Shown: in pieces, positions 42,996-48,966 of the stretch
Numbering within the stretch: the first letter of the stretch is position 1
Layout of the letters: every line of letters starts with the position of its first letter
Assembly: GCF_030055435.1 (NCBI RefSeq)
Contig: NZ_JASFYG010000002.1
Location: 207,224-271,223 of the forward strand
Direction: 5' to 3'
Length of the DNA: 64,000 nt
Origin: Methanothermobacter sp.
GTDB taxonomy: Archaea; Methanobacteriota; Methanobacteria; Methanobacteriales; Methanothermobacteraceae
The notes under the pieces: generated by a model
The model's database searches: none
Seen by the model: the letters and a program-made list of their open reading frames with translations, nothing else
Told to the model about the DNA's origin: nothing
Made by a program: the position numbers and the translations under genes

Positions 42996-44057
42996 ATGAG
43001 GATAGTACATGAGGATGAGAAAAACGGCGTCATAGAAGTCGTACCAGAAACCCTTGACGACCTCTGGCACCTCTCCCATATAATTGAGAAGGGTGACCTT
43101 CTTTCTGCAAGGACAACAAGGAGGATACAGGATACCAGCGGAGAGAAGATAAGAAGCGACAGGGGAGTTAAGAAAACCTTCTATCTGGGTATAAGGGTGG
43201 AAGGTGTCAGTTTCCACATATACACAGGAAAACTCAGAGCAACAGGGGTTATAGAGCGGGGCCCTGAGGACCTGGTCCCCCTCGGGTCGCACCACACCCT
43301 TGAGGTTAAACTCAACACCCCCCTCAGGATCAAAAAGGATTCCTGGAGCAGATGGACACTTAAGAGGCTTCAGGAGGCGGTAGAGGCATCAAAGCATATC
43401 AGAGCCGTGATAGTTGTGATTGAGGATGATGTGGCAGACATTGGAGTCATAAGACAGTATGGTGTGGATTACCAGGGCCCCATCACAGGCCACATCCCGG
43501 GTAAGAGGATGCATCAGAGGGACCGTGGGAAAATGCGCCTTGAATTCTATGAGAGTATAGTGGACGCCCTCAAAAAATACGGTGAACTTGAGACAATCAT
43601 AATTGCAGGTCCTGGCTTCTACAAGTCGGACTTCCATGAATACCTGCTTGAGAAGCACCCTGAGATCGGAAGGAAGGCCGTGGTTGAGAATACAGGGACC
43701 GGTGGAAGGTCAGGAATATATGAGGTTCTAAAGAAGGGCACAGTGGAGAGGGTTTCATCAGAGAACAGGGTTGCAGCAGAGGTAAGGAATGTGAATGAGG
43801 TCCTTGAGAGGCTGGCGAGGGACCCTGAAACCGTGGTCTATGGCAGGGAGAAGGTGCTGGAAGCCATCAATATGGGGGCTGTTGAGAGACTGCTGGTCCT
43901 TGACAGGGTTGTAAGCAGAGAGGATATTGAGGGATACCTTGATATCGTTGAAAGTATGGGGGGTTCCGTGGTTCTCATAAGCAGTGAACACGAGGGCGGC
44001 AAACAGCTGGAATCCCTCGGTGGACTTGCAGGTATATTGAGGTTCAGGATTTCATGA
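42996..44057 (+). CDS. pelA: Pelota (mRNA surveillance / ribosome rescue factor)
   Basis: Archaeal Pelota recognises stalled ribosomes and, with aABCE1, splits them. The 353 residues follow the eRF1-like layout: N-domain MRIVHEDEKNGVIEVVPE, central domain with AGPGFYKSDF, and C-domain with VYGREKVLEAINMGAVERLL. The N-terminal domain lacks the NIKS motif of eRF1, as expected. GGGTGA lies just upstream of the ATG. Confidence 0.94.
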   Translation: MRIVHEDEKNGVIEVVPETLDDLWHLSHIIEKGDLLSARTTRRIQDTSGEKIRSDRGVKKTFYLGIRVEGVSFHIYTGKLRATGVIERGPEDLVPLGSHHTLEVKLNTPLRIKKDSWSRWTLKRLQEAVEASKHIRAVIVVIEDDVADIGVIRQYGVDYQGPITGHIPGKRMHQRDRGKMRLEFYESIVDALKKYGELETIIIAGPGFYKSDFHEYLLEKHPEIGRKAVVENTGTGGRSGIYEVLKKGTVERVSSENRVAAEVRNVNEVLERLARDPETVVYGREKVLEAINMGAVERLLVLDRVVSREDIEGYLDIVESMGGSVVLISSEHEGGKQLESLGGLAGILRFRIS

Positions 44058-44069
44058 TGGGGGTATCAG

Positions 44070-45224
44070 GTGTTCAGGATTCTCCAGGATAAATGCACCG
44101 GCTGCGGGAGATGCAGGATGCTCCAGTGCAGCGGAAAATGTTCAGGGTGTGGGGCCTGCCAGATGGTATGCCCTGAGGGAGCACTTGTTCCAGGGAGAAG
44201 GGATGATACAGAGTACAGGGTGACAGTAAACAGTGAAGATGTCATGGCCACTGGCACCGTGGGGGATGCCCTTGAGGTTGCAGGTATCAGGGTAAGTGAC
44301 ATTCCCTGTGAGGGTGAATTATTCTCACCATGCGGTACAGGCGGATGCTGGGCCTGCGCTGTATCAGCAAATGGCAGGACGGTGCAGTCCTGTGTAACAC
44401 CCCTTGAGGAGGGGATGGTCATAGAGACCATACCTGAACCACCACTTAGGTATGTGAGCAACTTCGGCCCCCACACTGCTGGGGGAGTGGGGACACCCTT
44501 CAGTGAAAAGGGGGATGGCCCCGTTGAGGTGGTGTGCTTCGCCCATGGATGCAACCTGAGGTGTCCCCAGTGCCAGAACAGCCAGGTGGCGTTCACCACG
44601 GGTGACACTTTGCTTGACCCTGAAGAAACCGCAATGATACTGCTTGGCGTTGAATCGATTTACAGGACAGGCACCGTGACGTTCTCTGGCGGTGAATGCA
44701 CACTTAACAGGTCATGGCTCTCCGGTTCAGTCAGGAGGATAAGGGAACTTGATGGGGGAATCAACATTCACGTGGACACAAATGGTACCGTGCTCACCCC
44801 GCGATACATCGATGAACTTGTTGAGGCCGGCATGAACCGGATAGGAATTGACCTCAAGGGTAGGAGGCTGGAGACATTCATGAAGATAGCAGGGCTCAGC
44901 GACCCTGAGAAAGCCAGGGTATACCTTGAAAACTCCTGGAATGCCTTCAGATACATATCTGAGGAGCATGATGGAATATTCATGGGCCTCGGAGTCCCAT
45001 ACAACAGGGCACTCATATCCACAGGGGAGATTGCTGAAATGGCATCTGAGATAGCCTCTGTCAGTCCAGACGTCCAGGTAACCCTACTTGACTACAGGCC
45101 CGAGTTCAGGCTTAAAAATATACAGAGACCCTCGGTTCCTGAAATGCTTGAGGTTCGTGACCTGATGCTTGACAGGGGCCTCAGAAGGGTAATTGTCCAG
45201 ACATCTGAGGGATTCATAGGATGA
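44070..45224 (+). CDS. Multi-Fe-S radical SAM protein
   Basis: This 384-residue protein joins three Fe-S regions. Residues 9-34 have eight cysteines, CTGCGRCRMLQC and CSGCGACQMVCP (C9/12/15/20 and C24/27/30/34), enough for two [4Fe-4S] clusters. Residues 80-108 read C80 and then C88xxxxC93xxC96 and C108, the plant-type [2Fe-2S] pattern. Then comes a radical SAM core with GCNLRCPQC (C161, C165, C168), FSGGECTLN and DLKG motifs, resembling PFL-activating enzymes. Start is GTG after a GGGGGT. The partner radical enzyme is unknown. Confidence 0.9.
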   Translation: MFRILQDKCTGCGRCRMLQCSGKCSGCGACQMVCPEGALVPGRRDDTEYRVTVNSEDVMATGTVGDALEVAGIRVSDIPCEGELFSPCGTGGCWACAVSANGRTVQSCVTPLEEGMVIETIPEPPLRYVSNFGPHTAGGVGTPFSEKGDGPVEVVCFAHGCNLRCPQCQNSQVAFTTGDTLLDPEETAMILLGVESIYRTGTVTFSGGECTLNRSWLSGSVRRIRELDGGINIHVDTNGTVLTPRYIDELVEAGMNRIGIDLKGRRLETFMKIAGLSDPEKARVYLENSWNAFRYISEEHDGIFMGLGVPYNRALISTGEIAEMASEIASVSPDVQVTLLDYRPEFRLKNIQRPSVPEMLEVRDLMLDRGLRRVIVQTSEGFIG

Positions 45225-45245: not shown

Positions 45246-46136
45246 TTGGTTATGTTAATTTATGATTGGGCCCTGCCTTTAGTGGCTGTCGCCGTGCTTC
45301 TACTGACACCTGCTGCTGCGGCCATCATATCCCTCTTTAAAAATTCAAATCTCTACACTGATGTGAGGGGTGGCACACCCCGCGGTGCAGGTATTGTTCC
45401 ATGGGCAGCACTCTCCATATTCACATCCCCACCATTTAACGTGCCTATTGCTGTAATGGGGGCTCTGGCCTTTATTGATGACCTTACTGGAAGAAGAGGG
45501 ATAATGAACATTCCCATTGAGTGGGGGCAGCTTTCAAGGGGATTGGGTATACTGGCAGTCCTCCTCATCACCTACCCCTTCATGGGGGCCTGGGGACTCC
45601 TTGTGGCACTCATGGTACAACCACTGAATATTGCCGACATGCAGCCGGGTGTGGCCTGCACCGTGACGGTCCTCATGTCCCTCCTGGCACTCCCTGCAGC
45701 AGTCATGACGGGTTCAGGAATCCACTTTGCCCTTCTCATCATGGTGGTGGCACTGGCATACTCACCACTCGATTACATGGGGAGGATAATGATGGGGGAG
45801 GTTGGAAACCACAGCTTCGCAGTTGCCCTTGGGCTATTATTCTACATTTCAGGGGGGCCTTGGCTTCTCCTGGCGCTCTTTCTCCTGACACCCCTTGTAA
45901 CGGCCATTTTAAGGAGGGGCAATCTCTCAGACTTCCTTGAGAGGAGACTTAAAATTGAGAACCCCACCCTTGGGGATCTTTATATGGATGTCATGACAGG
46001 CGGAGGTCTCGGGGATCTTTTAAGGAGGATCATACTCGGTAGGAGGGCTTTCAGAATCAGGAACCCCTTCCTGATTTCGCTGGGATTCAGGAGGCTACTT
46101 TTCAACCCCCATGCGTCCCGGCTCCAGGAGTCCTGA
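45246..46136 (+). CDS. MraY-like phospho-sugar transferase (GT4-like)
   Basis: A polytopic membrane protein of 296 residues. MraY/WecA-family features are degraded but visible: a RGGTPRGAGIVPWA loop, GALAFIDDLTGRRG (aspartate pair), QPLNIADMQPG in place of the N-x-x-DGLDG motif, and MGEVGNHSFAVALG in place of MGDTGS. Such enzymes move a phospho-sugar to a polyprenyl phosphate. In Methanobacteriales a pseudomurein pathway uses MraY-like enzymes; this could be a paralog for cell-wall or glycolipid synthesis. TTG start after GGGGTG. Confidence 0.65.
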   Translation: MVMLIYDWALPLVAVAVLLLTPAAAAIISLFKNSNLYTDVRGGTPRGAGIVPWAALSIFTSPPFNVPIAVMGALAFIDDLTGRRGIMNIPIEWGQLSRGLGILAVLLITYPFMGAWGLLVALMVQPLNIADMQPGVACTVTVLMSLLALPAAVMTGSGIHFALLIMVVALAYSPLDYMGRIMMGEVGNHSFAVALGLLFYISGGPWLLLALFLLTPLVTAILRRGNLSDFLERRLKIENPTLGDLYMDVMTGGGLGDLLRRIILGRRAFRIRNPFLISLGFRRLLFNPHASRLQES

Positions 46137-47818: not shown

Positions 47819-47916
47819 ATTAACCACTTATTTAATGTATAATATTTAAACCTATTTTGCAGATATAGAATCTCCCTTTACATTTCATGGGTTTTTCACT
47901 GAATCATGGTGATCAT

Positions 47917-48966
47917 ATGAAGGCACTTTTCACTGTAACAGGTCGGGGAATGGGTGGAGACGCAATAACAGCACTAAACATAGCCAGTGCACTTGAGAAG
48001 AGAGGATTCGAATGCGAATTTGCACTTGATCACAGCGCCCCCGGGATACTCCTCAAAAAGAGGGGTATCGACTGGCACAGGGTCAGGATACCCCAGGCCG
48101 GAGGCCACGCAGCAAGCAGACTGAAACTACTGAAAGCTGCTTTCAGGACCCTGAGGGCGGTTTACGAGACAGGAAGGCTGATAAGGAAGATCAGACCCGA
48201 TGTGGTTGTTGGCGTGATAGGCGGGGGCGCGGTGGTGGGCTGCCTTGCCGCAAAAATTACCGGAGTGCCTGCTGTGGGGGTTCTCATAACCCCAACCGAT
48301 GCACGGGTCTGCACCCGCCTCAACAGGAACGTGGCGCTTCCAGAGTCCAACCTGTTCGGAAAGGACGTTGAGGGTGTTGAGAGTGTATATTCACCCATCA
48401 GCCCTGATATAACACTGGGGGATCCTGAAAGGGCCATTCAAAGGATGCCCCCTGAATTTGACCCTGATAAACCAACCATTGTTTTCTCCTCAGGTTCATC
48501 CCTCTTCAGGATGATGGCTGAGGCTGCGGTTAAAATGGCAGAATCAGATGTCAGTGCAAACATCACAGTTGTGGGGCACCCCCTCAGGGAGGAATACGGG
48601 CGGATGGTGGATCATGAGGGGATAATCAACCTGGGCTACATAGACTGGGTCAGTGACCTCTACAGCCTCGCCGACCTTGCGGTGCTCTCTGATGATGGGG
48701 TGATGGTCCATGAGGCCATTGCAATGAGGGTGCCGGTGGTGGCACTGAGGGGTGTCAAGTATGGAAGGTACCATAACATGGGTGCTGTCTTCAGGGGGGC
48801 CGTGCTGGAGACCGACCTTGATGGTATAGATGGGGCTATTTTGAGGGCACTTGAGGCTTCAGATGATATGAGGAGGGCCGCTGAGGCCTATAGTGGTGAT
48901 GTAATAGGGGCGGCAGATAGGATAGCTGAAATTATAGAGGAGGAGGCAGTTAAATCAGTGTCTTGA
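47917..48966 (+). CDS. MurG-like GT28 glycosyltransferase
   Basis: A 349-residue two-domain GT-B enzyme. The N-terminus MKALFTVTGRGMGGD has the Gly-rich loop, VVVGVIGGGAVVGCLAAK is the acceptor-domain motif, and NLGYIDWVSDLYSLADLAVL and SDDGVMVHEAIAMRVPVVAL give the C-terminal nucleotide-sugar site. It resembles MurG and UDP-GlcNAc 2-epimerases. With the MraY-like protein and UbiB kinase nearby it suggests a membrane glycan or pseudomurein role. Start is ATG preceded by an ideal GGTGATC. Confidence 0.75.
   Translation: MKALFTVTGRGMGGDAITALNIASALEKRGFECEFALDHSAPGILLKKRGIDWHRVRIPQAGGHAASRLKLLKAAFRTLRAVYETGRLIRKIRPDVVVGVIGGGAVVGCLAAKITGVPAVGVLITPTDARVCTRLNRNVALPESNLFGKDVEGVESVYSPISPDITLGDPERAIQRMPPEFDPDKPTIVFSSGSSLFRMMAEAAVKMAESDVSANITVVGHPLREEYGRMVDHEGIINLGYIDWVSDLYSLADLAVLSDDGVMVHEAIAMRVPVVALRGVKYGRYHNMGAVFRGAVLETDLDGIDGAILRALEASDDMRRAAEAYSGDVIGAADRIAEIIEEEAVKSVS

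Follow-up and report, generated by a model that had tools for sequence, protein, structure and literature searches.

The window, a stretch of 64,000 nucleotides of Methanothermobacter sp. DNA, contains the gene of a radical SAM protein, which lies 12 bases downstream from the pelota gene and 21 bases upstream from the gene of a membrane protein. The features of the locus are as follows:

42996 to 44057, forward strand: pelota (mRNA surveillance protein), the upstream neighbour (TIGR00111, 495.5 bits)
44070 to 45224, forward strand: the whole radical SAM gene (2x[4Fe-4S] ferredoxin/[2Fe-2S]/radical SAM), 384 aa, GTG start
44094 to 44171, forward strand: predicted 2x[4Fe-4S] ferredoxin domain of the bacterial type, residues 9-34, eight cysteines (Pfam Fer4, conservation, PDB profile matches)
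44211 to 44429, forward strand: predicted [2Fe-2S] ferredoxin domain, residues 48-120 (Pfam Fer2_4, invariant cysteines, PDB profile match to the N-terminal domain of HydA1/NuoG)
44463 to 44510, forward strand: linker F-x-x-H-x-x-G-G-V-G-T-P-x-x-x-K, residues 132-147 (H135 and G138-P143 invariant in 67 of 67 members)
44514 to 45221, forward strand: radical SAM core of the PFL-activase/NrdG2 type, residues 149-384 (Pfam Radical_SAM, Foldseek 3cb8)
44550 to 44573, forward strand: CNLRCPQC, residues 161-168, the predicted CX3CX2C ligands of the SAM-binding [4Fe-4S] cluster (invariant in 67 of 67)
44769 to 44786, forward strand: HVDTNG, residues 234-239, first part of a putative monovalent-cation/SAM-carboxylate site of the PFL-AE type (aligned to LDTNG of PFL-AE)
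44844 to 44858, forward strand: GIDLK, residues 259-263, second part of this putative site (aligned to LDLK of PFL-AE)
45246 to 46136, forward strand: 296-aa membrane protein, labelled MraY-like, the downstream neighbour (no Pfam match above the cut-off)

The gene is a single open frame of 384 codons with its stop codon at 45224, and is present in its own genome as a single full-length copy. A close relative has ATG at the site of the GTG start codon, followed by the identical FRIL sequence. The Pfam domains, all above their gathering scores, are arranged in the order Fer4 (27.8 against 21.1 bits), Fer2_4 (PF13510; 30.5 against 22.8 bits), and Radical_SAM (PF04055; 64.2 against 29.5 bits).

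Relatives were sought by scanning a public genome collection with peptide patterns around SGGE..TLN and H.DTNGT, which led to the confirmation of 119 relatives, 80 of which were kept, and the conservation counts were based on an alignment of 67 members of the family. The N-terminal cysteines form two four-cysteine motifs (C9, C12, C15, C20 and C24, C27, C30, C34), each residue of which is retained in 56-58 of the 58 members with the eight-cysteine domain. The predicted ligands of the [2Fe-2S] cluster (C88, C93, C96, and C108, that is, CX4CX2CX11C) and the cysteines of the radical SAM motif (C161, C165, and C168) are invariant in all 67, and two additional cysteines that the original prediction left uncounted, C80 and C210, are not conserved. 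Both Fer2_4 and Radical_SAM are recovered by Pfam in every member, and Fer4 in 56 of them. Given that the cluster ligands are conserved across the 67 relatives, the domain pattern is not due to chance, and the open reading frame is a member of a real, widespread, and strongly conserved family. In the putative cation site, D236 is retained in 66 of the 67 members, and T237, N238, D261, and K263 in all of them, although the invariance of the columns covered by the search patterns (D236, T237, and their neighbours in one pattern) is partly the result of selection, whereas the cluster-ligand columns lie outside these patterns. The linker that joins the [2Fe-2S] domain to the radical SAM domain, with its histidine and GGVGTP stretch (138-143), has so far been seen in this family alone.

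The original prediction of a radical SAM protein with the potential for four Fe-S clusters, and with a [2Fe-2S] domain ahead of the radical SAM core, was thus borne out by the reading frame, the Pfam matches, and the conserved ligands, and we infer from these cysteine sites that all four clusters would be assembled. The protein belongs to the radical SAM superfamily, given its motif, profile, and modelled half-barrel fold, and is predicted to cleave SAM, while the profile match and the four conserved cysteines place its second domain in Fer2_4, with predicted cluster binding. The description of this domain as plant-type did not hold, however, as it matches Fer2_4 and the N-terminal domain of NuoG, HydA1, and the formate dehydrogenases, rather than the plant-type Fer2.

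The eight-cysteine domain is missing from nine of the 67 members, an absence that, on a tree from which the domain was excluded, requires two changes, one in the mesophilic Methanobacteriaceae and the other in the Desulfobacterales, and the [2Fe-2S] domain is never absent. As these nine members lack the eight-cysteine domain, the obligatory unit of the family consists solely of the [2Fe-2S] and radical SAM parts. The absence of the outer domain in two separate clades, with the [2Fe-2S] domain being kept, is consistent with a relay whose outer module may be replaced by an external ferredoxin.

A structural model of the protein was generated by AlphaFold2 from the 67-row alignment, with high confidence (mean pLDDT of 95.7, pTM of 0.93, every residue at 70 or above), and has a core resembling that of the pyruvate formate-lyase activating enzyme (PFL-AE). 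This enzyme is the top Foldseek match in the PDB (3cb8, E 1.6e-12, TMt 0.78), and the further matches, all of them radical SAM proteins, include NifB, QueE, viperin, MoaA, and LipA. In a profile search of the PDB sequences, the N-terminus matches the polyferredoxins MvhB and FwdF, positions 56-144 of the profile match the N-terminal [2Fe-2S] domain of HydA1, NuoG, and the formate dehydrogenases, and positions 166-301 match PFL-AE; no solved chain in this search spans the entire protein. The electron-transfer domain shared with HydA1, NuoG, and the alpha subunit of formate dehydrogenase is fused here to a radical SAM domain, rather than to a hydrogenase or dehydrogenase. From what is known of PFL-AE, we take the DTNG and DLK motifs to be the site that binds SAM and a monovalent cation. 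A bound monovalent cation is important to the activity of PFL-AE itself (PMC9326890).

The same anatomy bears on the direction in which electrons might flow. For a number of radical SAM enzymes, the auxiliary Fe-S clusters have been suggested to act as electron acceptors, and the ferredoxin domains may, in a similar way, receive an electron from the radical that hydrogen abstraction leaves on the substrate, and hand it on to ferredoxin, in a net oxidation comparable to that of the anaerobic sulfatase-maturating enzymes. This arrangement would suit the observed domains, but such electron-accepting clusters sit in SPASM or Twitch domains behind the active site, and no domain of this kind was seen in the protein, while C-terminal cysteines recur at two columns alone (338 and 376), each of which lacks a cysteine in 19 of the 67 members, including the protein encoded in the window, which makes an electron sink rather improbable. 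The invariance of the [2Fe-2S] site would also be compatible with a sacrificial sulfur donor, the precedent being biotin synthase, in which sulfur insertion uses a [2Fe-2S] cluster. The site lies, however, in a four-cysteine ferredoxin domain akin to the electron-transfer domains of HydA1 and NuoG, and not in the barrel with an arginine ligand, so that this role is very improbable indeed.

No NCBIfam equivalog scores above its cut-off for the protein, and the family has neither an NCBIfam equivalog nor a Pfam family of its own, in agreement with the original view that it falls outside the families with an assigned function. The NrdG2, YjjW, and PFLA models nevertheless match all 67 members. 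The top-scoring model for the protein is NrdG2 (TIGR02495; 66 bits, against a cut-off of 131.15), which lacks the [2Fe-2S] domain. PFL-AE (TIGR02493, PDB 3cb8/8fo0) shares the radical SAM core and the CX3CX2C, SGGE, DTNG, and DLK motifs, but has no ferredoxin domains, and its model yields a score of 45, against a cut-off of 231.75; PFL was not found in the host genome. The C-terminal end of the AmmeMemoRadiSam radical SAM enzyme (TIGR04337) aligns with the radical SAM part of the protein, at 26% identity, but this enzyme also lacks the ferredoxin domains, and the host has a separate copy of it (369.6 against 220 bits). Another activase-like radical SAM protein found in the genome of the window (G000:C7; L002:1285-2259, forward strand), with the N-terminus NCSLCEWRCGANRSAGERGVC..., has no NCBIfam model above the cut-off.

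The closest precedents for the accessory clusters are the PFLE/PFLC (TIGR02494), YjjW (TIGR04041), HPAD-AE, and CutD activases of the glycyl radical enzymes (GREs), which share the activase core and have accessory [4Fe-4S] clusters. In the GRE activases with a 2x[4Fe-4S] insert, the ferredoxin-like domain is inserted into the radical SAM domain, C-terminal to the CX3CX2C motif, whereas in the protein described here, it is N-terminal and is followed by the [2Fe-2S] domain. The scores for the models of these insert-bearing activases are far below the cut-offs, and the protein lacks a GRE partner. Auxiliary [4Fe-4S] clusters of unknown role are found on most of the GRE activases, and ferredoxin-like [4Fe-4S] modules are common on the radical SAM activases (PMC11528403). 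Because of this, only the [2Fe-2S] part of the ferredoxin-radical SAM fusion, which the original prediction considered unusual as a whole, is in fact unusual, whereas a 2x[4Fe-4S] module is already known from the GRE activases. The open-licence literature yielded no paper in which a [2Fe-2S] ferredoxin domain is joined to a radical SAM protein.

The original prediction was correct in placing the gene after pelota, although the MraY-like label of the downstream gene finds no support in Pfam, and the expectation that this neighbourhood, with its suggested link to pseudomurein, would be informative was not sustained. In eight Methanobacteriaceae genomes that lack the family (L121, L123-L127, L129, and L130), the pelota and MraY-like genes are adjacent to one another without the radical SAM gene; locus L122, where the downstream stretch is uninformative, was left out of this count. 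In genome G001, the MraY-like gene directly follows pelota, and the radical SAM gene is located elsewhere, between genes resembling the DNA polymerase II large subunit and CobB/CbiA, as read by eye. Given that the neighbours are adjacent without the radical SAM gene, and that the gene lies elsewhere in G001, the linkage is dispensable, an operon of the three genes is rejected, and the apparent operon reflects a gene order particular to the lineage, with pelota and the MraY-like gene being next to the radical SAM gene by chance.

In almost every one of the Methanobacteriales examined, the gene of the MraY-like membrane protein is conserved next to pelota. A MurG-like glycosyltransferase (window positions 47887-48966, forward strand; TIGR01133, 30.9 bits, below the cut-off) is encoded two genes 3' of it, and in G001 (L128), a MurG-like homologue, identified by eye, directly follows the MraY-like gene. 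These two genes possibly form a conserved envelope pair.

The family is patchy among the anaerobes and is usually present as a single copy. In the phylum survey, 16 carriers were found among 152 genomes, and 16 among the 91 good genomes, while profile searches free of the pattern bias recovered the family in 34 of the 345 genomes of the Archaeoglobus phylum and eight of the 297 genomes of a Desulfobacterales phylum. Its presence in sulfate reducers, Asgard archaea, Chloroflexota, and Firmicutes, together with its absence from most Methanobacteriaceae, excludes a link with methanogenesis as such, for which co-occurrence had originally been suggested as a check. The possibility of plasmid or viral cargo was also rejected, as no full-length plasmid relative and no viral relative were found. 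Two genomes of the Desulfobacterales phylum (G726 and G748) have three copies each, which may be paralogues with different targets.

No gene or cluster recurs beside the family across phyla in the loci inspected, and the failure to find a partner gene counts against the main reading given below. The co-occurrence of candidate partners was analysed in 29 carrier genomes (21 for the PFL-like proteins), with the exclusions resting on the carriers with complete chromosomes, given that completeness is known for only part of the carriers. The protein may, for example, be the activating enzyme of a GRE, such as NrdD, a PFL-like protein, or an aminoacyl radical variant, as the PFL-AE-type core and the residues of the SAM/cation site (D..T, D.K) would suggest, together with the presence of NrdD in its own genome. 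This genome also encodes a separate NrdG2 (L004), however, which scores 162.6 bits, above the cut-off of 131.2, and two carriers with a complete single chromosome (G168 and G170) have no NRDD, Gly_radical, or PFL-like matches, nor do two others of unknown completeness (G157 and G160), while no recurrent GRE gene adjoins the family in the inspected loci. A dedicated GRE activase is therefore rejected family-wide; the idea could survive solely for an unrecognised GRE-like protein, and has little probability.

A role in the maturation of CODH/ACS came into consideration through the CODH genes (Prismane/CooS-type) found within 8 kb of the family gene at three loci (L047:4021-5931, L084:2021-3940, and L104:13763-17271), which are not a general rule; AcsB is also nearby in L104. 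This role was rejected, as CdhC, the beta subunit, is absent from 12 of the 29 carriers, including those with the complete chromosomes G166-G168 and G170, and CODH/ACS is present in half of eight non-carriers. The maturation of tungsten aldehyde oxidoreductases was rejected due to the absence of AFOR_N from all seven of the Methanobacteriales carriers tested, and from G169; the score of the protein for the TIGR04317-like model is 31.9, against 380 bits. A second radical SAM protein resembling PflA/YjjW, with extra cysteines (CRACGSC...YCPG), adjoins the family gene at three loci, from archaea and a bacterium (L104:7509-8555, forward strand; L047:2258-3298, reverse strand; L040:9215-10255, reverse strand), and is found away from it in other carriers. 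It was rejected as an obligate partner, as the carriers among the Methanobacteriales have no clear copy of it. All four candidates, that is, the GREs, CODH/ACS, the tungsten oxidoreductases, and the second radical SAM protein, are thus excluded as obligate partners.

We consider the protein to be a stand-alone radical SAM enzyme with its own electron-input module, whose likeliest substrate is a macromolecule, that is, a protein, a reading to which we assign a probability of roughly 0.45. Electrons would enter at the N-terminal 2x[4Fe-4S] ferredoxin domain, or would be supplied by an external ferredoxin in the short forms that lack it, and would then cross the invariant [2Fe-2S] domain to reduce the SAM-bound [4Fe-4S] cluster. 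The cleavage of SAM would generate a 5'-deoxyadenosyl radical in the half barrel, which would, in turn, take a hydrogen atom from the substrate. A built-in electron wire of this kind is plausible. The substrate is likely to be a macromolecule because the core is shared with activases of protein substrates, although the fold also matches QueE, viperin, and MoaA, and such cores do not always act on macromolecules.

Given these matches, which extend to NifB and LipA, the enzyme may instead synthesize or modify a small molecule, such as a cofactor, a lipid, or a nucleotide precursor, with the ferredoxin domains feeding the extra electrons of a net-reductive radical SAM reaction. Its stand-alone, mostly single-copy, and patchy occurrence resembles that of an accessory biosynthetic enzyme, and a reaction in which both catalysis and the cleavage of SAM consume electrons would be well served by the extra cluster domains. 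The nearest relatives in both sequence and fold are, however, activases of protein substrates, and the protein has no shared biosynthetic neighbours and no additional substrate-binding domain. Overall, a small-molecule substrate is tentatively considered to be nearly as likely as a macromolecular one.

If the macromolecular reading is taken further, the family might be a radical SAM class, common to methanogens, ANME, Archaeoglobi, Asgard archaea, and sulfate reducers, in which the complete in-cis chain from 2x[4Fe-4S] through [2Fe-2S] to the SAM cluster taps the pool of low-potential ferredoxin directly, and drives a novel radical modification of a protein that is neither a GRE nor a known radical SAM target. 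This fuller proposal is somewhat unlikely to hold in all its parts.

To our knowledge, the physiological electron donors of the archaeal radical SAM enzymes are mostly unknown. An enzyme with its own relay, if this is true, would make the question of the electron donor testable within a single polypeptide, with the natural short forms that lack the N-terminal eight-cysteine domain providing a built-in comparison, and the Methanobacteriales, the lineage of the window, include genetically tractable methanogens. Given the breadth of the family, with 119 relatives from one pattern scan, the identification of the substrate would give a function to the genes of many anaerobe genomes at once.
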